The notes beneath the pieces are model-generated. The model had not been told where the DNA came from. It saw only the letters and a list, made by a program, of their open reading frames with translations, and did not search any database. Made by a program: the position numbers and the translations under genes. Of a stretch of DNA of 34,858 nucleotides, positions 4,385 to 24,297 are shown piece after piece (the first letter of the stretch is position 1; every line of letters starts with the position of its first letter). Origin of the DNA: Piscirickettsiaceae bacterium (GTDB lineage: Bacteria > Pseudomonadota > Gammaproteobacteria > Nitrosococcales > Methylophagaceae). The stretch is from the NCBI GenBank assembly GCA_024685975.1, contig JAIBDZ010000017.1:1-34858 (forward strand). Reading direction: 5' to 3'.

Positions 4385-4758
4385 CTATCTAATTCGCTTT
4401 CATATTCAGCTAAGGTCAATAATGCATCAATATCCTTGTTATCATTCGGCATTATTTTAAATAACCAACCCGCATCATAAGGTGAATCATTGACTAATTC
4501 TGGTTCGTCTTCTAACTGAACATTCGTCGCAATAACTTTACCTGCAACTGGCATATAAATATCTGATGCAGCTTTAACCGACTCTATTAACATACAGGCA
4601 TCACCTGCTGCTATGACCGCGTCCTTATTCGGCAGTTCAACATAAACAATATCACCTAACTGGTCTTGTGCATGATCTGTAATACCAACGGTTAAACTAC
4701 CATCTTGCTCTTGTTTAACCCATTCATGCGATTTGGCATATTTTAGTTGTTGTGTCAT
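4381..4758 (-). CDS. gcvH: Glycine cleavage system H protein
   Basis: Lipoyl carrier protein that shuttles the aminomethyl group between the P, T and L proteins of glycine cleavage. The lipoylation site is [12 protein letters not shown] with K62 as the modified lysine. The 125-residue length and the start [11 protein letters not shown] are standard. Its ATG shares one base with the malQ stop (TAATG), so it looks translationally coupled as the last gene of a glucan operon. No gcvT, gcvP or lipoate gene is in the window, which makes the placement odd. H-like lipoyl carriers can serve other systems, but nothing here points to one. Confidence 0.93.
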
Positions 4759-6206
4759 TAGCGGTATCGCTCATATAGTTGGTTTAATTCAGTTAATTGC
4801 TGACGTGCTTCATTCGTCAATTGTGGCCAATCAAAACGCCATTGCCAGTTATCATCGACTGTACCAGGTGTATTCATACGATCTGCTGAACTTAATGCCA
4901 AAATATCTTGCATCGGCACCACAGCCACTTGTGCCACTGATTGCCACGCCATTCTAATTAAAGGCCAAGGCATTGTTTTATCTGACATTCCACTATATTG
5001 TTTGAAGTGATGTTTAACATGCTCTTCGGCCGATTGATACCAGCCTAAGCTCGTGTCATTATCATGTGTCCCCGTGTACACCACACTATCGACTTGGTGT
5101 CGATGAGGCAGATAAGGGTTATCGGATTGGCCACCAAAAGCGAATTGTAATATTGTCATACCGGGTAAGCCATAGCGTTCACGTAGGGCTGTCACTTCAG
5201 CGGTAATCACACCGAGATCTTCAGCAACAAAAGGCAATTGATCAAAGCTATTTTGCAAGCTATCAAACAAAGCCTCTCCTGGCCCTGTCACCCATTGGCC
5301 TTCAATGGCTGTTTCACATTCTGCGGGGATCTGCCAATACGCCTCAAAGCCACGGAAATGGTCTATTCGTACCAAATCAAATAAGGTTAATTGACTCGAT
5401 AGGCGATCAGTCCACCAGCTGAAACCTTGCTGTTGATGAATAGGCCAATCATATAGAGGATTACCCCAACGCTGACCTGTTTCAGAAAAATAATCCGGTG
5501 GCACGCCTGCAACATGTGTAGTTCTTCCTTGCTCATCCAGTAAGAACAGATCGCGATTTAACCATACGTCAGCACTATCATGAGCGACAAAAATAGGCAT
5601 ATCACCAAATAACAAGACGCCTTTACTGTCAGCATAATGCTTTAATGCTTGCCATTGTTGCCAGAACTGAAATTGTTCAAATTTTTTTTGCTGTAATGCT
5701 TGATGATATTGCGTTGTAAAATCATTCAGCGCCTTATCATCCCTATCACGAAGCGCCTCCGGCCATGCAGTCCAAGCTTGGTTCTCATGCTTTTCTCGTA
5801 TCTGACAAAACAAGGCATAATCCGTCAACCAAGTTTGTTGCTCACAAAAAGCAGTGAAAGCATTGTGTTGTCGTCTATCAGCATAACGCTCAAAAGCCTG
5901 ATAAGCATGATGAAAAAAGGCGTCATCATCTGGATTGATATTTAGGCTCGAAGCCCAATCTTGCGCTAGGATAGTTTGTTTACAAATAAATTGTTTATCA
6001 ACAGCATAAGCTGATAGACATTGATAAGGTGAGTGATCTTCATGTGTTGGTCCTAATGGCAACATTTGCCAAATACTGACACCACATTCATGTAAAAAAT
6101 CAATAAAACGATACGCATCGGTACCAATAGTGCCGCTTGGCAAGCTCGTTAGATGAAGTAATATGCCACTTCTTCTTCTATCAAAAACACTTGCTCGTTG
6201 ACTCAC
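4758..6206 (-). CDS. malQ: 4-alpha-glucanotransferase (amylomaltase, GH77)
   Basis: Cytoplasmic enzyme that transfers maltodextrin segments between alpha-1,4-glucans, releasing glucose. The start [14 protein letters not shown] is typical of GH77. The catalytic set is visible: nucleophile D282 in VRIDHFRGF, acid/base E329 in FVAEDLG, and D382 in TGTHDND. At 482 residues it is the short plant/Thermus-type form, lacking the N-terminal extension of E. coli MalQ. It starts directly after the GH57 stop (6207) and overlaps gcvH by one base. Together with glgC and the GH57 gene it probably forms one operon for glycogen or maltodextrin turnover. Confidence 0.95.
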
Positions 6207-7889
6207 TTAACCACCACGTCGCATCGTGCCGCCTTGTTCTGTTCCGCTGCCACCATAGGACACTACTTCAGATAAGACTTGAGGCACTTCTTCACCCAAC
6301 ATTTGATATAAGTTTGATAAGTGAAGACGGAAGAGACGCTCAAAATCACTCACGCTATCGCCAGAGTTATAATCGCCAAACCACCAAAACCAATCCGAGC
6401 CTTCACAAATCGCCAATTGACGTAATAAGGCTGCCATTGTTTCGGCATCAAAGCTACGAGTCGCCACCACACGATCAAATGTTTGTTTTGCTTCGCTCAA
6501 CAAATCCCAACCGCGATTTTTGTCAGGATCGCCAATCCATGTTGAAAATGTACCGTAAACCCAACTTCCGGCGACCATTTTCGGTAACGGTGTCGCTTTC
6601 ACGCCAGATGTTAAACAATCAGAAAATGTGGTTAACTCAATATCTGGGTGCTGGGCTAATGTTTTATACAAACCTTGTAAAAAATAATAGCCATTGTAGG
6701 AGTAGTACTCCCAAGCATTTTCACCATCCAAAATAACAGACACAACCCGATCGGATTCATCATGTGTTTCTGCCTTAATCGTCATCAAATGGCTCACGAA
6801 GTCAGCAACGGCATCTTTTGCATCCCATTTAGTGTAACTAAAGCCAATCAGATCAGATAAACCATCATCTCGGAAAAAACACGCTAAACCATTTTCAGTT
6901 AATTTATAAGGTTTATGAATATTGGCATCCGGCATTTTTGAGGCGTTTAAACTGTTTCTTAATACATTTTCACCCGTCGCAGCCCATGTAAAACCATGTT
7001 GCTCGATCAACGATATGGTCGCAGTTGAAACAGCCCCTTCTGATGGCCAACAACCTGTTGGTTTAAAACCAAAATAAGATTCAAAAACACGAATCCCTTC
7101 GTCCATATGCCAATGCGCCCGTGCGACGCCGCCAGGATAATCCGTAATTTGTGGCAACTCTGCTCCAGGCATAGCTTCATGGGTGCTATTGATATCTAAC
7201 ATCAAAGGCACAATTGGGTGGGCATACGGCGTGACGGATAGTTCTACTTTGCCTGCTTCAGCTAGCCTACGATACCGTGGAATCAAATCATCAAGTAACT
7301 CACCAATCACCGTCATGAGTTGCCTTCTATCATGGAAGTCAAACATCTGACCTTTTTTCATCAATGCTTGGATGCGAGTATCTGTTCTTCTAACTGACTC
7401 CCCCATCCATGCCAAGTGATACCAAACCAGTAGATCGATCATAAATTGATCGTTGATATAGGCAAGGCGATCTGTTTTTTCTAACAACTCTCTCGCCATG
7501 GCAGCCAAATTGGCAAAGGGCGGGTAAGGTGCAATTAATTTTTCATCATTGGCTCGTAAACAAGCCGAAATCAGCGTTTTACGTTCTTCAATATGATTCG
7601 GTTGTACTGGTGAGTCCAATGCAATTAGCATTGGATCTTTTAATCTTCCAGTGCCTTTGAACCGGCCTTTTAGCTGTTCATCATAATCGGCAATTTGTTC
7701 AATTAAGGTTGGTGCAAAATTGACAACGGCTCGCGCTCCAGGCGTATTTTCGATATGCCATGCCATATCGACATAATCTTTTATCGCATGCAAATACGTC
7801 CATGGCAGTTGATACATTCCGCCCAGCGGCTCGCTATATTGCGGCTGGTGCATGTGCCAACAGAGAACGACTTTTAATTTATCTGACAT
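6207..7889 (-). CDS. Glycoside hydrolase family 57 protein
   Basis: Predicted alpha-glucan-active enzyme. GH57 includes alpha-amylases, 4-alpha-glucanotransferases, amylopullulanases and branching enzymes, and the exact activity cannot be read from sequence. The family's HQP motif is at residues 14-16 (CWHMHQPQY). The likely nucleophile is E284 ([10 protein letters not shown]), and the likely acid/base is D388 ([12 protein letters not shown]). The whole 560 residues look like one GH57 catalytic region plus its helical C-terminal part, with no signal peptide, so it is cytoplasmic. The start overlaps the end of glgC by 11 bases and the stop abuts malQ. This is the usual company of GH57 proteins in bacterial glycogen clusters. 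Confidence 0.92.
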
Positions 7890-9150
7890 AACGATAGTTT
7901 TGTCCTAACATTTCTGGCGTGACTAAGACCACGCCTGATGGAGAAACATAAAACCGTTTGGCATCTTCTTCATGATCTTCACCAATCACGGTATTGGGTG
8001 GAATATCACAGCCTTTATCCAATACTACTTTATTTAAACGACAATGACGACCGATGTTAACGTCTGGCAAGACAACCGAATTTTCAACCACCGCATAACT
8101 ATGTACGTTCACATTAGAGAACAACACACTATGCCTTACCGTCGAACCAGAGATGAGACAACCGCCCGAGACCATGGAATCAACTGCTGAGCCTCTTCTA
8201 CCGTCATCATCAAACACAAATTTTGCCGGTGGCTCTTGTGCTTGATAAGTCCAAATTGGCCAGTCATCATCATATAAATTCAATTCAGGTGTAATCCCGA
8301 TCAATTCCAAATTGGCAGACCAAAAAGCATCGATCGTTCCTACATCACGCCAATAGCCTGGATCATTCCCTTGCACATCTTTGTATGGAAACGCGACAAC
8401 ATTATAGTTATCAATTAATGACGGAATGATGTCATGACCAAAATCATGGCTCGAATCTGGGTTATCAGCATCTTTAATCACTTGCTCATATAAGAATTTG
8501 GCGTTAAAGATATAAATCCCCATCGAAGCTAAAGCTACCCCATCTTTACCCGGAATAGAATTGGGGTTATTAGGTTTTTCGTCAAAGGCGTTGACATGCA
8601 TGTTTTCATCAACCGACATTACACCAAAAGCTTTGGCTTCCTCGACAGGTACTTGAAGGCAACCGATCGTCATATCTGCGCCTGTTTCCACATGAGCGGC
8701 TAACATATCACCATAGTCCATTTTATAGATATGGTCGCCCGCTAAAATGAGTACATATTCTGGGCTGTGGTTTCGTAAAATATCGACATTTTGGAAAACT
8801 GCATCAGCAGTTCCTGCGTACCAGCCACCACCTTCAGTTCGTTGTGATGCTGGCAATAACTCGACAAACTCACCGAGCTCGCCGCGCATAAACCCCCAAC
8901 CTTGCTGAACATGCCGCATTAACGAATGCGCTTTATATTGCGTTAAAATACCTACTCGGCGAATGCCTGAATTAACACAATTTGATAAAGGAAAATCGAT
9001 TATGCGGAATTTGCCTCCAAACGGCACTGCTGGCTTTGCTCGCCAATCGGTTAATTGTTTCAACCTTGAGCCGCGTCCTCCTGCCAAGATAAGTGCCAAC
9101 GTGTCTCGAGTAAGACGGCTGACAAAACGCGTGCTATTATTAGCAGACAT
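7879..9150 (-). CDS. glgC: Glucose-1-phosphate adenylyltransferase (ADP-glucose pyrophosphorylase)
   Basis: Makes ADP-glucose from glucose-1-phosphate and ATP, the committed step of glycogen synthesis. The nucleotide-binding start [32 protein letters not shown] and the C-terminal left-handed beta-helix hexapeptide pattern (about residues 300-400) are clear. The reading frame is open to an ATG at 9198, but the ATG at 9150 (MSANNSTRF) is preferred. It has GGGAG at a proper distance and gives 423 residues, close to the 431 of E. coli GlgC. It is the first gene of the leftward glgC-GH57-malQ-gcvH set and is divergent from glgB across 93 A/T-rich bases. No glycogen synthase (glgA) gene is in view. 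Confidence 0.95.
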
Positions 9151-9243
9151 GAATAACTCCCAACGATGGATAAGTAACTTTGTATATAAGACTGCCACAG
9201 GATTTCATATTCATCAAAATATTTTTTTTGGAATTTTGATACG

Positions 9244-11421
9244 ATGATTTTATCACCTGCTCGCTCTAAAGATTTAATTAAAATCATTGAAGCTCGTCAT
9301 CATGATCCCTTTGCTGTTTTAGGACCGCATCATGATCAAGATAACGTGACCGTTACGGCCTTTTTACCTGATACAGATACGGCTTCACTGAATGGCGAAT
9401 TAAGCCTTTCACGTATTGAAGGAACAGATATTTTTGAATGGTCTGGCCCTGCTAGCCAACTCAAAACACCCTACTTTATTCATCGAAAAAACAGTCAAGG
9501 TGATATTTATCAACACTATGATCCTTATAGTTTTTCGCCACAACTTTCTGACTTCGATTTACATTTGTTTTCTGAAGGTCGTCACTGGCACGCCTATCGT
9601 TTTTTTGGCGCACACCACCATGAAGTCGACGGGATAAAAGGGGTCTTATTTTCGACCTGGGCACCGAATGCAGAACGCATCAGCATTGTCGGCAACTTTA
9701 ACCAATGGGATGGACGCTGCCATCCAATGCGCGTACGTGGTCACAACGGTGTATGGGAGTTATTTATTCCAGGATTGACCGAAGGTGATTTATATAAATT
9801 CGAAATTCGCAACCGAGATGATGGTTCATTACACACTAAAATGGATCCCTATGCGCAACAAACTGAGCTTCGTCCTGGTACGGCATCAGTCGTTGCAGCC
9901 AAACAACAACATCAATGGCAAGATCAAGACTGGTTAAGTCGCCGTGCGGAAAGTGATTGGCTGCATGAAGCCCATTCTGTTTATGAGGTTCACTTAGGTT
10001 CTTGGCAACGTGATGCCAACGGAGAATTTTTAGACTATCAGGCAATGGCAGACCGTCTTGTGCCCTATGTTAAGCATATGGGGTTCACACATATTGAATT
10101 GCTACCCATTACAGAGCACCCGCTGGATGCGTCATGGGGCTACCAAACGACAGGTTATTTTTCTCCGACTAGCCGTTTTGGCACACCTGACCAATTTCGC
10201 TATTTTATTGATCAATGTCACCAACATGGCATTGGTGTCATTCTTGATTGGGTACCGGGACATTTTCCTAAAGATAACCATGGCTTAGCCCGCTTTGATG
10301 GTAGTGCTTTATATGAGCATGCCGATCCGCGTCAGGGGGAACATCAAGATTGGGGCACTTATATCTTCAATTATGGCCGCCCTGAGGTCACTAACTTTCT
10401 ATTAGCCAGTGCGATGTATTGGCTGGAAGAGTTTCATATTGATGGCCTTCGTGTCGACGCCGTCGCATCCATGCTATATCTCGATTATTCACGTGAAGAA
10501 GGCCAATGGATCCCCAATAAGCATGGTGGTCGCGAAAATCTCGATGTGATTGCCTTTTTACAACAACTCAATACTGTTTTACATCAAGAACACCCTGGTT
10601 GTTTAATCTCTGCAGAAGAATCAACGTCTTACCCGATGGTTTCAAGGCCCACACATATGGGCGGACTTGGTTTCTCGATGAAATGGAATATGGGTTGGAT
10701 GCATGATGTATTGCATTATATGCAACATGATGCCATTCATCGTCGTTTTCATCATGATTCTTTAACTTTTGGCTTGTTGTACGCCTTTAATGAAAACTTT
10801 ATTTTGCCCTTTTCACATGATGAGGTCGTGCATGGTAAAGGAGCAATGATCAACAAAATGCCGGGGGATGAATGGCAACGGTTTGCTAATCTCCGCTTGC
10901 TCTACACGTTTATGTATACCTACCCTGGTAAAAAGCTTTTATTCATGGGCTCAGAGTTTGCTCAAGGCTCAGAATGGCGTTGTGATGGCACATTGGATTG
11001 GTATATTCTGCAATACCCCTTACATCATGGTATGCAGAGCTTAGTACGTGATTTGAACCATACTTATCGTGACCTCCCTGCTTTACATCGCTACGATTTT
11101 AGCCCGCAAGGATTTGATTGGATAGATTGTTCTGATCAAGAACAATCTATTCTCAGCTATGTACGACGAGATGGTGAAGACTACATCATTACTATTTTCA
11201 ATTTCACGCCTGTGCCACGAGAAAATTACCGTATTGGCGTACCAGAATCAGACCAATATCAGATAGTGATTAACTCTGATTCACATCACTATGGTGGTAG
11301 CAATATTGAAAATGTTGATGTCTTTGAAACTGAGCATATTGCTTGGTCTGATCAACCTTACTCTTTGACACTGCATCTGCCACCTTTAGCAGGGATTATC
11401 CTGCGAAAAGTGGCAGATTAA
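9244..11421 (+). CDS. glgB: 1,4-alpha-glucan branching enzyme (GH13)
   Basis: Introduces alpha-1,6 branches into glycogen by cutting and transferring alpha-1,4 chains. The 725-residue length equals the long E. coli type. It has an N-terminal branching-enzyme module (about 1-115), a CBM48 domain (about 125-215) and a GH13 barrel carrying nucleophile D405 ([10 protein letters not shown]), acid/base E458 (SAEESTSYP) and the [10 protein letters not shown] motif. A C-terminal beta domain follows. It is divergent from glgC and stops 17 bases before the convergent pgi stop. The ribosome binding site is weak (GGA about 11 bases upstream). Confidence 0.96.
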
Positions 11422-11438
11422 TCTATGTGATTAGTGTG

Positions 11439-13079
11439 TTAACGCACCGTTAATTGTTTAATCAATTTAATCAAACTGGTCGTTGAACTATCGTGAGCCG
11501 AAATAGCGCTATCCGCTTGTAAGTCAGGCAAAATAGCTTTTGCCAATTGCTTACCGAGTTCAACGCCCCATTGATCGAATGAGTTAATATTCCAGATAAC
11601 GCCTTGAACAAAGACTTTATGTTCATATAAAGCCACTAACTGCCCTAACATTTCGGGAGTTAACTTTGGAAAGATCAAGGTATTACTAGGACGATTTCCA
11701 GGGAAAATTTTATGTGGTAGTAATGCTTCTAGTTCTTCACCTTCAAGCCCACTCTTCGCTAATTCGACTCTGACTTCTTCTGCCGACTTACCTTTCATCA
11801 ACGCTTCTGATTGCGCCAGCCCATTTGCCAATAAAATCGATTGATGGTCACAATCAGGGTAATGACTGTTAACAGGTAACACAAAGTCGACAGGAATCAA
11901 CTGCGTACCTTGATGGATCAATTGAAAATAAGCATGTTGCCCATTTGTGCCTGGTGTTCCCCAAATCACAGGGCCAGTTCTATAACTGATTCGCTGGCCT
12001 GTTCGGTTGGTCACTTTACCATTACTTTCCATATCAAGCTGTTGCATATGATTCGGAAAACGCGCTAGGGAATGATCGTAAGGCACAATCGCATGGGTTT
12101 GTGCACCAAAGAAATTGATATACCATACACCCAACATGCCCATGATGACTGGCATATTGCGTTCTAACGGTTGTTCTCTGAAATGCTTATCCATCGTATG
12201 ACCACCTTCTAACAGGCGCTCAAAATTATCCATACCAACATATAACGCTATCGGTAAACCAATCGCACTCCATAAAGAGTATCGACCGCCAACCCAGTCC
12301 CAAATTTCAAACATATTTTTAGTATCAATACCAAAGGCAGACACCGCTTCTGCATTAGTTGAGACTGCCACAAAATGTTTTGCAATGTCTTGTTCTTGGG
12401 CTGCGTTTAAAAACCATGCTCGTGCTGATGTCGCGTTGGTAATGGTTTCTTGAGTGGTAAATGTTTTCGACGCCACAACAAATAAAGTCGTTTCTGGATT
12501 GAGCTTATCTAAAGTTGTACTCAGATCAGTACCATCAACATTGGAGACAAAATGTACCGTCATGCCATCAATGCCATACGGTTCAAGCGCATCACAGATC
12601 ATCGCCGGACCCAGATCTGAGCCCCCAATCCCAATATTGACAATATCCGTTATTTTTTGTCCACTGAAACCTAACCATTTTCCTGAATGCACTAACTCGC
12701 AAAACGCTTTCATTTGCGATAACACGGCATTCACTTTCGGCATAATATCTTCGCCATCAACCATAATTGGCGTATTGCTACGATTTCGTAAAGCGATATG
12801 AGAAACGGCACGTCCCTCTGTCGTATTAATGCTTTCGCCGGAGAACATACGTTCTATCCAGTTCTCTAATTTTAATGATTTGGCTAAAGCGACTAATTTC
12901 TCAACCGTTTCTTTCGTGATACGGTTTTTGGAATAGTCTAATAATAAGTCCCCACTTTTAAGGGAAAAACGTTCAAAACGGCCTGAGTCTAATGCGAATT
13001 CATCTCGCATTGATAGATATTTCACATCATCATAATGGCGTTCTAATGATTGCCATTCAGGAGTATTCAATGGGGTCAT
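11439..13079 (-). CDS. pgi: Glucose-6-phosphate isomerase
   Basis: Interconverts glucose-6-P and fructose-6-P. At 546 residues it is the long (E. coli/eukaryote) type. Signatures are [11 protein letters not shown] (148-158), [12 protein letters not shown] (201-212), [16 protein letters not shown] (261-276) and ESNGK with catalytic E351. The catalytic His is in NGQHAYFQ (H382), and the Lys-bearing helix LGKQLAKAI is near the C terminus. It lies 19 bases downstream of hisS on the same strand, so it may be the last gene of the ndk-to-hisS cluster. It also links fructose-6-P to the nearby ADP-glucose/glycogen genes. Its place after hisS is not the common gammaproteobacterial order. Confidence 0.97.
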
Positions 13080-13098
13080 ATTTGTCTTCTATCTATAT

Positions 13099-14355
13099 TT
13101 AAGATTGTAAATAAATGGCTAAATCATCCCAAGCAACAGTCTCTTGTTCACCCGTTGCCATTGTCTTCACACCAATCGTTTGTTGATTAATTTCTTCTTC
13201 GCCAAGGATTAACGCCCAACGAGCTCCGCTGCGGTCTGCCTGTTTAAATTGGCTTTTAAAACTACCACCACCACAATGAGTAATCAACTTCAAACCCGGA
13301 ACTTTATCCCGTAACTGCTCTGATAATTGAGGCGCATACTGTTGCGCAGCCTCTCCTACAGCGACAAGATAGGCATCTAATTGAGGTATTTCGGGCAAGG
13401 CATCCGTTGCTTCTAATAAAGCGATAAGACGCTCTATCCCAATCGCAAAACCAATCGCCGACGCCCCTTTGCCGCCTAATTGGGTTACCAAACCATCATA
13501 ACGGCCACCAGCGCAGACTGTACCTTGAGAGCCTAAATGATCTGTGACCCATTCAAAAACTGTTTTGCCATAATAATCTAAGCCACGAACAAGACGAGGA
13601 TTAATGTCGTATTCAATGCCTGCCGCATCCAAATACGCACATAATGCATCAAAATCTTGTTTAGATTCTTCATCTAAATGAGCCAGTAATTGAGGAGCGC
13701 CATCATTTAAAGCCTGCATGTCAGGATTCTTACTATCCAATATCCGCAATGGATTGGTATGTAATCTACGTTGGCTATCTTCGTCTAATTGATCTTGATG
13801 TGCTTCAAAATAGGCAATCAATTTATCACGATAAGCTAGACGTGCTTCGGTGCTGCCTAATGAATTAATTTGTAAGGTAATGCCGGTCAGACCAAGTTCT
13901 TTCCATAAGCGTGACGTCATTAAGATCATTTCAGCATCAATATCTGGCCCTTTGAAGCCATATGCTTCGACGCCTAATTGATGAAACTGTCGATAGCGTC
14001 CTTTTTGAGGACGTTCATGACGAAACATTGGGCCCATATACCATAAACGTTGTGTTTGTTGAATCAAGCCATTTTGCATAGCTGCTCTAACGCAACCCGC
14101 CGTCCCTTCAGGACGTAGCGTCAATCCATCACCGTTACGATCTTCGAAGCTATACATTTCTTTCTCAACGATATCAGTGACTTCACCAATAGAACGTGAA
14201 AATAATGCAGTTTTTTCAATAATTGGAAAACGAATCTCTTGATAACCATAATTGGTTAAAACGCGATTTAATGTTGCCTCTATCGATTGCCAATAGGCGG
14301 TTGTTTCAGGAAGAATATCATTCATTCCCCTGACTGAACGGATCATCTCTGCCAC
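13099..14355 (-). CDS. hisS: Histidine--tRNA ligase
   Basis: Class II synthetase that charges tRNA-His. The start [13 protein letters not shown] is diagnostic of HisRS. The class II motif 2 region ([20 protein letters not shown]), the HisRS-specific motif [15 protein letters not shown] and a C-terminal anticodon-binding domain (about 325-418) are present, and 418 residues is the normal length. It follows ispG after 2 bases, the standard coupling in gammaproteobacteria. Its substrate tRNA-His is also encoded in this window, at 28788-28864. Confidence 0.97.
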
Positions 14356-21783: not shown

Positions 21784-21796
21784 CTCGCTTAAGCCT
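21768..21796. terminator. Hairpin joining the ends of bamE and can
   Basis: A 13-bp stem (21768-21780 with 21784-21796, one G-T wobble) has the bamE stop codon TAA as its 3-base loop and covers the can stop codon in its right arm. There is no clean T-run on the plus strand and only a broken one on the minus strand, so intrinsic termination is uncertain. It could still pause polymerase or protect the 3' ends of both transcripts. Confidence 0.45.
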
Positions 21797-22424
21797 CTAA
21801 AACTGAGATGAATTTATCGGCCTCAGGTCGGTAACTTAATAACTGTCCTGTTCTGACATCAAAATACCAGCCATGAATGCGTAAGTTACCAGCCTCAATG
21901 CGTTGCTGAATAAAAGGGAAACTCATTAAGTTTTCTAATGACACTAGGATTGATGACTGCTCACAAGCACAGAGTTGCTCAGATAAGCTACTATCCTGAT
22001 GCGTTTCTTGAACTGTTTCTTTAGCTTTTTTAGCGACTGATAACCAAGATTGAATCAAATGAGAACCACTGGAAGCCTCTCCTTCCCATAATGCATTGAT
22101 GCCGCCGCAATTAGCATGACCCATCACAATAATTGTCTCGACTTCTAAATGATTGACCGCAAAATCTAAGGCTGCACTAGTACCATGATGATCAGTATCT
22201 TCAGTAAATGGCGGGACTAAATTAGCCACATTTCGCACAATAAATAAATCGCCAGGTTCGCAACTCGTTAAGATGGCAGGGTCAACACGTGAATCACAGC
22301 AGGCAATCATCATAATTTTAGCTGGTTGGCCTTCTTTCATACTGGCATATAAGGAATTGTCATCTCCAAAATATGTCTCTTGAAAACGTGTGAATCCTTC
22401 GATTAACTTTTTTGTACTCGCCAT
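21789..22424 (-). CDS. can: Beta-class carbonic anhydrase
   Basis: Zinc enzyme that interconverts CO2 and bicarbonate in the cytoplasm. The beta-class ligands are C42 and D44 in ACCDSRVDP, and H103 and C106 in GHANCGG. The length (211) fits. AGAGGG precedes the ATG. The gene starts just 26 bases after the terminator hairpin of the upstream repeat-protein gene, so its own promoter must overlap or lie within that hairpin region. The final HGWYFDVRTGQLLSY segment is typical of the family. Confidence 0.95.
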   Translation of the reverse strand: MASTKKLIEGFTRFQETYFGDDNSLYASMKEGQPAKIMMIACCDSRVDPAILTSCEPGDLFIVRNVANLVPPFTEDTDHHGTSAALDFAVNHLEVETIIVMGHANCGGINALWEGEASSGSHLIQSWLSVAKKAKETVQETHQDSSLSEQLCACEQSSILVSLENLMSFPFIQQRIEAGNLRIHGWYFDVRTGQLLSYRPEADKFISVLEA

Positions 22425-22450
22425 CTATTGACCCTCTATTGTCATCTCAT

Positions 22451-22486
22451 AATAAAAAGCTACCGTTATATTTTATAACGATAGCT
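22451..22486 (-). terminator. Rho-independent terminator of the WYEAN-repeat gene
   Basis: A 13-bp stem (22474-22486 with 22458-22470, one mismatch) has a three-base TTT loop as read on the plus strand. On the minus strand it is followed by the T-rich run TTTTTATT. It lies about 37 bases past the stop of the repeat-protein gene and just before the carbonic anhydrase gene. It separates the two transcription units. Confidence 0.8.
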
Positions 22487-22522
22487 TCCTATTATGCAGC
22501 GTCTAGATGAATTAAGTACGTT

Positions 22523-23719
22523 TTAGTGCTTATTTCTCACCGCTTCGGTATTAGCTTCATACCATTTTTGTTTAATTTGTTTTTTTCTCGCTGCCGCTAG
22601 ATTAGCTTCGTACCAACGTTGTTTCACATCAGCATGGCTTTGCTCTACTGCATTCGCTTCATACCATGGCGTTTGCTTGTTTGCACTTCTCACTTGTGCA
22701 AGGTTTGCTTCATACCATTTTTGCTTCACATCTGCATATTGATTAACAACCTTATTGGCTTCATACCAAGGTGCATGCTGTCGAGTCTGTCTTGCTTGGG
22801 CAAGGTTTGCTTCATACCATTTTTGTTTAACTTCAGCATGAGGACTGTTATTTAGGTTAGCTTCATACCAAGGTGTGACATCAGAATTATCTTGCTGAAT
22901 TTGATTCGCTTCATACCATTTATTTCGGCTTTCACGTGCTGTCGCTAAATTAGCTTGATACCATTTTTTCTTAATATCAGCATGAGGATCGGCGTGAAGG
23001 TTTGCTTCATACCATTTCTGGCTGCTTGCTCGCACAGCTTGTGTGTTAGCTTCATACCATTTCGAATTAATTTGTTTTTCTTTGGCCAAAGCCAAGTTGG
23101 CCTCATACCACTTCTGTTTCACATCAGCATGCGGATCGACAACGATATTGGCTTCATACCAAGGCTTATGTTGTCTAGCCTGTCTTGCTTGGGCAAGGTT
23201 CGCTTCATACCATTTTTGTTTTACTTCAGCGTGAGGGCTGTTATTAAGGTTTGCTTCATACCATGGGGTAACATCAGAATTATCTTGCTGAATTTGATTC
23301 GCTTCATACCATTTATGGTGGTTTTCACGTGCCGTCGCTAAATTAGCTTCATACCATTTTTGCTTAATTTCAGCATGCGGTCCTGTATGCATATTCGCTT
23401 CATACCATGGTGTTTTAGACGCTAATTGTTGTTGATTCGCTTCATACCATTTCTGACGAGTGACTTTCACAGAAGAGACGGCCGCTTTCAGATTAGCCTC
23501 ATACCATTTCTTTTTGGTATCGATATGCTTTTCCATATTTGCCTCATACCAATGTGTACTGACTTTTTTAGCAGGTAACTTATTGGCTTCATACCATGGT
23601 GTTACTGCTTTTTTTGTCGTTTGTACTCGGTTAGCTTGATACCACTTTTTGACTTTTTGTCTTGTGCCTTCTCTTTCAGCATCAAACCATTTTGAATGTA
23701 TTGTATATGTTGTACTCAT
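22523..23719 (-). CDS. WYEAN tandem-repeat protein, unknown function
   Basis: I do not recognise the family. The 398-residue product has no signal peptide, no membrane segment and no cysteine, and is lysine- and glutamine-rich. It is built of 24 short motifs whose Trp residues fall at 11, 26, 42, 57, 72, 91, 105, 122, 137, 153, 170, 187, 204, 221, 236, 253, 268, 284, 301, 318, 335, 352, 369 and 386. Twenty-one read WYEAN, two WYQAN, and the first is a degenerate WFDAE. The residues before Trp are usually QK or TP. Spacers fall into classes, such as LAxAR after QK-type motifs and HADVK before them. SD AAGAGGAG lies 7 bases before the ATG and a terminator follows the gene. Helical repeat scaffold, binding array or multi-core peptide precursor are all possible; none is shown. 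Confidence 0.85.
   Translation of the reverse strand: MSTTYTIHSKWFDAEREGTRQKVKKWYQANRVQTTKKAVTPWYEANKLPAKKVSTHWYEANMEKHIDTKKKWYEANLKAAVSSVKVTRQKWYEANQQQLASKTPWYEANMHTGPHAEIKQKWYEANLATARENHHKWYEANQIQQDNSDVTPWYEANLNNSPHAEVKQKWYEANLAQARQARQHKPWYEANIVVDPHADVKQKWYEANLALAKEKQINSKWYEANTQAVRASSQKWYEANLHADPHADIKKKWYQANLATARESRNKWYEANQIQQDNSDVTPWYEANLNNSPHAEVKQKWYEANLAQARQTRQHAPWYEANKVVNQYADVKQKWYEANLAQVRSANKQTPWYEANAVEQSHADVKQRWYEANLAAARKKQIKQKWYEANTEAVRNKH
22754..22963 (-). repeat. Second copy of a 393-bp-offset internal duplication (residues 253-322)
   Basis: These 70 residues match residues 122-191 at 64 positions, including 45 identical residues in a row. The offset is exactly 393 bp (131 codons, eight motifs), so the array grew by in-frame segmental duplication. 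Confidence 0.88.
23147..23356 (-). repeat. First copy of the internal duplication (residues 122-191)
   Basis: This is the partner of 22754-22963. Differences are E/Q, N/S, H/R, H/N, A/T and K/A, all outside the Trp-Tyr core except one Glu-to-Gln change. Confidence 0.88.
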
Positions 23720-23782
23720 TGTTCATCTCCTCTTGGATAAGATATATCCACGTCTTCGATATTACACGAGTTTTACAAAAAA
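23720..23782 (-). promoter_or_regulatory. Ribosome binding site and candidate promoter of the WYEAN-repeat gene
   Basis: AAGAGGAG at 23727-23734 (minus strand) is a near-perfect Shine-Dalgarno sequence 7 bases from the ATG. A small inverted repeat GGATA/TATCC (23735-23749) touches it and could mask it weakly. Upstream, TAATAT (23759-23764) may be a -10, with a poor TTGTTT/TTGTTG-like -35. The ribosome site is firm, the promoter weak. Confidence 0.5.
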
Positions 23783-23815: not shown

Positions 23816-24232
23816 TTATTCAAAACAATACTTCTCCGCCTTCAACTGTTGTAATAAGGCAATACGTTGTTCCACTAGTATTTGACGGCGCTTTTCTTTT
23901 TCTTCAACCGATGCTGAATAGCCTAAATATGCCATGCCTGCCAGTCCATTAACTATAGGAATCGCATCGACGGTAATTAATGCTGCTGCGACTTTATTGG
24001 CGTTATCTTCATAAAATGGTGCTTTGTAACTATATCGGTATGGTTGCATCATCCGTAAGGCATTGTCTAAACCAACACATGACATCTGGTTTAACTGTTC
24101 ATTTCGCTCAATAACAGGCGGTTCAAAGTAAATTGGCTCTAATGGAACATTAGGTAAAGTAATCGCGGACACAGCGTGAGTTATCATGATGCAGCCAAAA
24201 GCAATGAATAAACGCAGGTATCTGTGGGTCAT
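23816..24232 (-). CDS. Small secreted/periplasmic protein of unknown function
   Basis: I do not recognise this protein. The preferred start is the ATG at 24232 (MTHRYLRLF), with AGGA 8 bases upstream; an ATG at 24250 in frame has its AGGA too close. The product has 138 residues. A Sec signal peptide covers about 1-24 with a likely cut after AVSA. A proline-rich stretch follows (ITLPNVPLEPIYFEPP), then a single Cys in MSCVGLDNAL, a Gly/Ala-rich hydrophobic segment (VDAIPIVNGLAGMAYLGYSA) that could touch a membrane, a charged helix (EEKEKRRQILVEQRIALLQQ) and a final KYCFE. The two cysteines left after cleavage could pair. It lies about 96 bases upstream of the WYEAN-repeat gene on the same strand. 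Confidence 0.7.
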   Translation of the reverse strand: MTHRYLRLFIAFGCIMITHAVSAITLPNVPLEPIYFEPPVIERNEQLNQMSCVGLDNALRMMQPYRYSYKAPFYEDNANKVAAALITVDAIPIVNGLAGMAYLGYSASVEEKEKRRQILVEQRIALLQQLKAEKYCFE

Positions 24233-24297
24233 CTTATTTTTCCTAATCATTTCCTATTTACCTTATCGGCATTTATGATGAAAACTAAAATAGTCAG

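Follow-up and report, generated by a model that had tools for sequence, protein, structure and literature searches.

A tandem array of Trp-Tyr motifs in one protein of Methylophaga and close relatives, a possible sticker-and-spacer scaffold

The closest described counterparts of the protein analysed here are the linker proteins of pyrenoids. In the cited excerpts, PYCO1 of diatoms is described as a tandem repeat protein with KWSPR tryptophans that are needed for Rubisco condensates; once these tryptophans were replaced, homotypic condensates were strongly impaired and those with Rubisco all but absent (PMC10288592). According to the excerpted text on CsLinker, it binds the Rubisco large subunit via repeated helical regions, and the FLIPPer search for Rubisco linkers used a sticker spacing of 20-120 residues (PMC11570498). 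As far as the cited parts of both papers go, EPYC1 is not conserved beyond close relatives (PMC10288592, PMC11570498). The array protein resembles EPYC1, PYCO1 and CsLinker, as they are portrayed in these excerpts, in that short Trp-containing or helical binding elements are repeated along a tandem repeat chain. Pyrenoid linkers are, however, eukaryotic and bind Rubisco, whereas the array protein is bacterial, carries many more motifs and has almost no glycine.

Among bacterial proteins, the carboxysome linker CsoS2 is a repeat protein that gathers an enzyme via repeated short motifs and lies in carboxysome operons together with shell genes. In contrast, inspection by eye of the ORFs listed for the window, that is, the whole stretch of 34,858 nucleotides analysed here, revealed no shell gene, and the likeness to CsoS2 is one of description alone. 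Sel1 and TPR repeats are also helical and rich in letters of the W/Y/A/N type, in units of approximately 34-36 amino acids that form defined helix pairs; Pfam listed no match of the window protein to these or to other solenoid families (HEAT, ARM).

The array gene occupies positions 22523..23719 of the minus strand as one intact ORF, which starts with ATG at 23719, ends with its stop at 22523 and encodes 398 amino acids, while stops interrupt the plus-strand reading of the same interval. From the translation, the unit list and the composition, the protein has a mass of 47.3 kDa, pI 9.5, a net charge of +17 and 24 tryptophan units spaced by 14-19 residues. The first-pass annotation had described it as a near-pure tandem W-Y-[EQ]-A-N protein lacking cysteine, with a Trp-Tyr core in 23 of 24 units, and all of this was confirmed. 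Its count of 24 WYEAN motifs stands for the number of units; strictly, there are 21 WYEAN, two WYQAN and one degenerate unit, WFDAE, which is the first. WY and WY[EQ]AN thus each occur in 23 of 24 units, while the maximum number of WY[EQ]AN in 20,000 residue shuffles was one. The synonymous variation of the motif codons is real as well: alanine is encoded by GCT (8), GCC (4), GCA (5) and GCG (6), asparagine by AAC (9) and AAT (14), and the 23 motifs are encoded by 12 distinct 15-mers.

A Shine-Dalgarno-like AGGAG (23727..23731, minus strand), recognised by eye, lies shortly upstream of the ATG. Just 3' of the gene, before the carbonic anhydrase gene, there is a strong hairpin with a T-run resembling an intrinsic terminator (22454..22490, minus strand). 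Folding of 22440-22510 yielded -31.1 kcal/mol (z -7.7, with none of 200 shuffles equally good), the best single hairpin having -20.3 kcal/mol; a consensus terminator scanner reported no terminator at 22454..22490. Hairpins of -15 kcal/mol or lower with a T-rich tail follow the array in 17 of 50 loci, the window included, so such a hairpin is not general among array loci.

Thirty-two distinct homologues, which vary about twofold in length (202-427 amino acids; the arrays of L052 and L053 run into the contig end), share pI values of 9.3-9.8, GRAVY values from -1.1 to -1.5, 12-29 tryptophans and the absence of cysteine. In these 32 proteins, the window protein included, 633 tryptophans are followed by Y in 89%, E in 71%, A in 86% and N in 88% of cases, and a lysine occupies positions -1 to -3 of the tryptophan in 41-63% of units. 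Of 601 intervals between tryptophans, 590 are 10-19 residues long, seven are 1-2 and four are 23-31; the dominant spacings are 15 (284 intervals) and 17 (162 intervals). Stops or frameshifts in homologues, which the first-pass annotation had named as evidence that would refute its reading, were found in a minority at most and so mostly did not refute it: each of the 31 fetched loci has one array ORF, and among 18 further loci the array is in one frame in 16 and in two frames in two (L092 and L093), which may reflect sequencing error or decay.

When the window protein itself served as the first query, 33 of 59 relatives had matches. A profile built from 31 of the 32 distinct proteins identified the array in 53 of 57 Methylophagaceae genomes, including 34 of 36 genomes of good quality. 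At the level of the order, 53 of 63 genomes matched, with none among six genomes of another family; in a sample of the class, four of 369 genomes matched, all four being Methylophagaceae, and the array was found in none of the 365 genomes from outside the family. In a sample of the phylum, two of 398 genomes matched, the window's own genome and G438. The G438 match is spurious, as it lies in a pentapeptide-repeat-like ORF with a period of five (by eye). Pentapeptide-repeat proteins have xEANL-like letters in common with the array but, unlike it, have a period of five and no W-Y-x-A-N array, the tryptophans of the window protein being 14-19 residues apart; the likeness is a chance similarity of composition. 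Collections of plasmids and phages gave no array match, and two stretches in IMG/VR fit a pattern, neither of them confirmed as an array. In the genomes searched, the gene has so far been detected in no lineage other than Methylophaga and close relatives.

Four Methylophagaceae genomes were array-negative: G022, G070, G029 and G031. The absence in G022 and G070 is uninformative, as their recN-bamE contigs end beside bamE. G029, a genome of 1.1 Mb that is rated 100% complete, has its coq7-like, carbonic anhydrase and bamE-like ORFs one after the other without an intervening array, and in G031 genes other than the array follow bamE. The bamE-like ORF of the reduced genome G029 (L089, 3325-3582, minus strand) carries a short KSD tandem repeat. 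In G004, G015 and G076 the array is spread over contig ends. The motif is confined to the array: in eight of ten genomes, for which the DNA matches to WY[EQ]AN were fully listed, G000 and G012 each had a single match elsewhere and the others had none, which is no more than the two matches of a reversed control pattern in ten genomes.

The protein family appears undescribed in the libraries and literature searched. Pfam yielded two sub-threshold matches (best E 0.031), neither to a solenoid family; NCBIfam matches of the window protein were all sub-threshold (best E 0.025); and the best match in a sequence search of the PDB was insignificant (E 0.6). The first-pass claim that the protein has no recognisable domain is thereby borne out, and the check it had proposed for a characterised repeat family revealed no significant match in these three sources. 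Among the papers listed in a literature search by motif there was none on this protein, longer spellings of the motif gave no results, and among the matches listed for Methylophaga repeat, scaffold, disorder and proteome literature there was nothing on the array protein. The kind of architecture, a linker of repeated motifs, is already known.

To determine the pattern of selection, we divided the codons into the WYxAN core and the spacer in 17 species pairs. With the motif of the first sequence defining the core positions, a choice that somewhat favours a low core figure, dN/dS was 0.012-0.126 for the core and 0.081-0.331 for the spacer, and the core value was lower in all 12 pairs for which both could be calculated; the other five of 17 pairs had saturated synonymous sites in one or both codon classes. 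By raw nonsynonymous differences, the core was below the spacer in all 17 pairs. Core and spacers are both constrained, the core far more, which bears out the proposal that the motif itself is under selection and shows this selection to be strong.

The flanks of individual units (12 residues around the tryptophan) were also compared between genera. They were alike at 37-44% for the same array position, a figure that the alignment somewhat favours, versus 17-19% for other positions. Hence the units are not interchangeable: the unit at a given array position retains its particular flanks from genus to genus. The earlier statement that spacers drift is valid between units of one protein, but same-position spacers are alike between species. 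Within single proteins, unit similarities point to duplicated blocks of units. In the window copy, a block of 300 nt is present twice on the minus strand, at 22698..22997 (approximately units 16-21) and at 23091..23390 (approximately units 8-13), the two members being 85% identical and 393 nt, or 131 codons, apart. Such internal duplications, together with the arrays in two frames in two of 18 further loci, could be explained by repeat expansion without a selected function, the array being selfish or neutral. This explanation is extremely improbable: in every case in which dN/dS could be calculated it is below one, for core and spacer alike, and the array is kept in 53 of 57 genomes of the family.

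Structure prediction yielded no confident fold. The AlphaFold2 model of the whole chain has a mean pLDDT of 44 and pTM of 0.16 (with only five aligned rows), and that of a 139-residue module 54 and 0.22 (with only nine aligned rows); the low confidence may be a mere effect of the shallow alignments. Both models feature helices parted by breaks, the longest being 43 and 45 residues. Of the 15 helices in the low-confidence whole-chain model, 11 begin at most two residues after a proline, consistent with the earlier remark on proline at helix starts. The helical moment averaged around the tryptophan is 0.18 at 100 degrees and 0.29 at 150 degrees; the averaged unit is therefore not clearly amphipathic as a helix. 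Given the pLDDT and pTM values and the weak amphipathicity, a helical repeat scaffold in the sense of a compact fold, one of two readings offered by the first-pass annotation, is not supported so far. Its other reading, a repeated module for ligand binding or assembly, is a better fit.

We therefore consider the array protein as a lineage-specific, cytosolic, multivalent scaffold of stickers and spacers that would cross-link a partner or itself, with a probability of about 0.4. The cytosolic location is suggested by the lack of a signal peptide by eye. The sticker would be the K-W-Y-E-A-N element on a short helix, and all stickers would dock on one shared surface of an oligomeric partner, or else on further copies of the chain. 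Segments rich in Lys, Gln, Ser and Thr and broken by proline would serve as spacers of set length. With approximately 12-29 stickers per chain, partner molecules could be cross-linked into a cluster, a condensate or an ordered lattice.

Several observations argue for the scaffold reading: the large number of copies of a short conserved aromatic motif per chain (23 WY[EQ]AN in 398 amino acids), selection on this motif, its confinement to the array, the basic hydrophilic composition, the broken helices without a confident fold in the models, the weak amphipathicity, mildly ribosomal-type codon usage and a design that resembles pyrenoid linkers. The codon usage of the array gene was assessed with a score controlled for amino acids, since raw CAI may be inflated by amino-acid composition. 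After this control it shows a mild bias towards the codons of ribosomal genes (z 3.0 in each of two relatives), ranking second of 30 and third of 29 local genes. The absolute score is near zero (-0.006 and -0.007) and below that of an ndk-like gene (0.09), so that abundance of the protein is merely hinted at.

Counted against the scaffold are the tryptophan spacings, which are mostly (590 of 601) 10-19 residues and hence under the 20-120 residues given for the Rubisco-linker search FLIPPer in the cited excerpt (PMC11570498). The same-position likeness of flanks (0.37-0.44 versus 0.17-0.19) together with purifying selection argues against free spacers, and the low content of glycine (0.5%) and high content of alanine (14.6%) in the window protein favour a helix over a flexible linker. 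The main rival is an ordered alpha-helical rod or filament, in which long helices would pack with their W/Y edges on neighbouring chains and which would act as a fibre or a spacer of defined length. The long helices of the models (maximum 43 and 45 residues), the dominance of spacings 15 and 17 (284 and 162 of 601), the unit identity kept across genera and the Ala-rich, Gly-poor chain are in line with a rod, while the pTM values (0.16 and 0.22), many helix breaks after proline, mixed spacings that preclude a single helical register, the weak helical moment and the approximately twofold variation in length (202-427 amino acids) oppose it. We regard the rod as unlikely, but it stays a live rival because the conserved unit order argues for some order.

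The basic, W/Y-rich helical segments broken by proline could also form a surface coat, with aromatic-rich helices lying on a membrane, a storage granule or a polymer in the manner of apolipoproteins or phasins. This is distinctly improbable, as asparagine and glutamate are among the most conserved residues beside W and Y, the averaged helical moment is weak and no such family is among the Pfam and NCBIfam matches. Binding of DNA or RNA by Lys-rich repeats with stacking of Trp and Tyr, to which the pI of 9.5 and the lysines at -1 to -3 in 41-63% of units might point, is very improbable: the net charge is merely +17 over 398 residues with Glu in most motifs, and none of the Pfam and NCBIfam matches is to a DNA-binding family.

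The array is found at one genomic site, where the order is bamE, carbonic anhydrase, sometimes a hydrolase of the metallo-beta-lactamase fold, the array and orfS; beyond orfS, part of the relatives have sortase-type regulators and a LonB-like protease, followed by pilZ, coq7, cheV and rnr. Names of neighbours were given by eye, except for the family-scanned carbonic anhydrase and PilZ genes and the genes of L038 and L040. The upstream neighbour orfS (23816..24250, minus strand) is small and has a signal-like N-terminus by eye, so its product is probably exported; EPIYFEPP and two cysteines are invariant in five aligned sequences, and no Pfam or NCBIfam match was found. It lies upstream of the array in 30 of 31 loci, and weak matches to it are present in seven of 271 other genomes of the class sample. 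The downstream neighbour (21789..22424, minus strand) is a carbonic anhydrase (PF00484, by Pfam), and 26 of the 28 loci extending to bamE have it there. As neither gene is obligatory, the neighbours are weak functional clues.

Some further features of the region were observed. In L040, regulator-like genes of the proteobacterial dedicated sortase system adjoin the array (9694-13468), a response regulator scoring over the NCBIfam cut-off and PdsS- and PdsO-like genes being best matches under the cut-offs; according to the ORF lists, several relatives have similar ORF sets. A gene for a LonB-like AAA/Lon protease follows in L040 (13497-15896, minus strand), near the array, and ORFs of 802-823 amino acids occupy this place in 14 of 31 loci, that of L040 being the one scanned, with none in the window. 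The cheV-like and ntrB-like matches of L025 are split over several ORFs, which suggests decay or assembly errors. In the window, genes of glycogen type (glucanotransferase-, GlgC-, GlgB- and glycoside hydrolase-like) and a pgi-like gene, all by eye, are located at 4758-13079, approximately 10 kb from the array.

The protease bears on another explanation, in which the protein is a multi-core precursor from which WYEAN peptides are cut out and modified. The invariant short core with variable surroundings and basic flanks, the presence of nearly all motif copies in one protein, and the LonB-like protease of L040, with ORFs about as long in 14 of 31 loci, are what such a precursor might show. It is nevertheless highly improbable, since no signal or leader peptide is seen by eye, no family of peptide-modifying enzymes is among the scanned subset of neighbours, the flanks are unit-specific and conserved, and no LonB-like ORF stands beside the window array.

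For the scaffold, three candidate partners were considered. Carbonic anhydrase is weakened by L025 and L041, which have the array without it at the site, and by G029 with the reverse; orfS is weakened by G018 (99% complete), which has the array and no orfS match, and by the weak matches in other genomes of the class sample. Hexulose-phosphate synthase, which scored over the family cut-off in eight of nine genomes tested, has one point for it (G029 is without both) and one against (G031 has the enzyme without the array). That the partner is an enzyme of one-carbon metabolism is no more than a guess, and helical stickers, their docking and the resulting cross-linking are inferred.

In summary, our best reading is that the array protein may work like pyrenoid linkers, without being classed as one. 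It is doubtful, though conceivable, that it is a shell-free bacterial counterpart of these linkers, a membraneless organiser so far without a known equivalent elsewhere, in which some two dozen Trp-Tyr stickers would bring together the molecules of a metabolic enzyme as a condensate or lattice; the enzyme might belong to formaldehyde or methanol metabolism. It is unusual for a conserved gene at a single locus to mark a family, to be built from one short motif and to have no match in the families searched. Whether the protein is a scaffold or a rod, the pattern of selection means that the motif can be tested directly. A scaffold would imply that methylotrophs cluster an enzyme by means of a shell-free linker, and its homologues would then offer a naturally graded set of sticker numbers and spacings; a rod would represent a new helical repeat.
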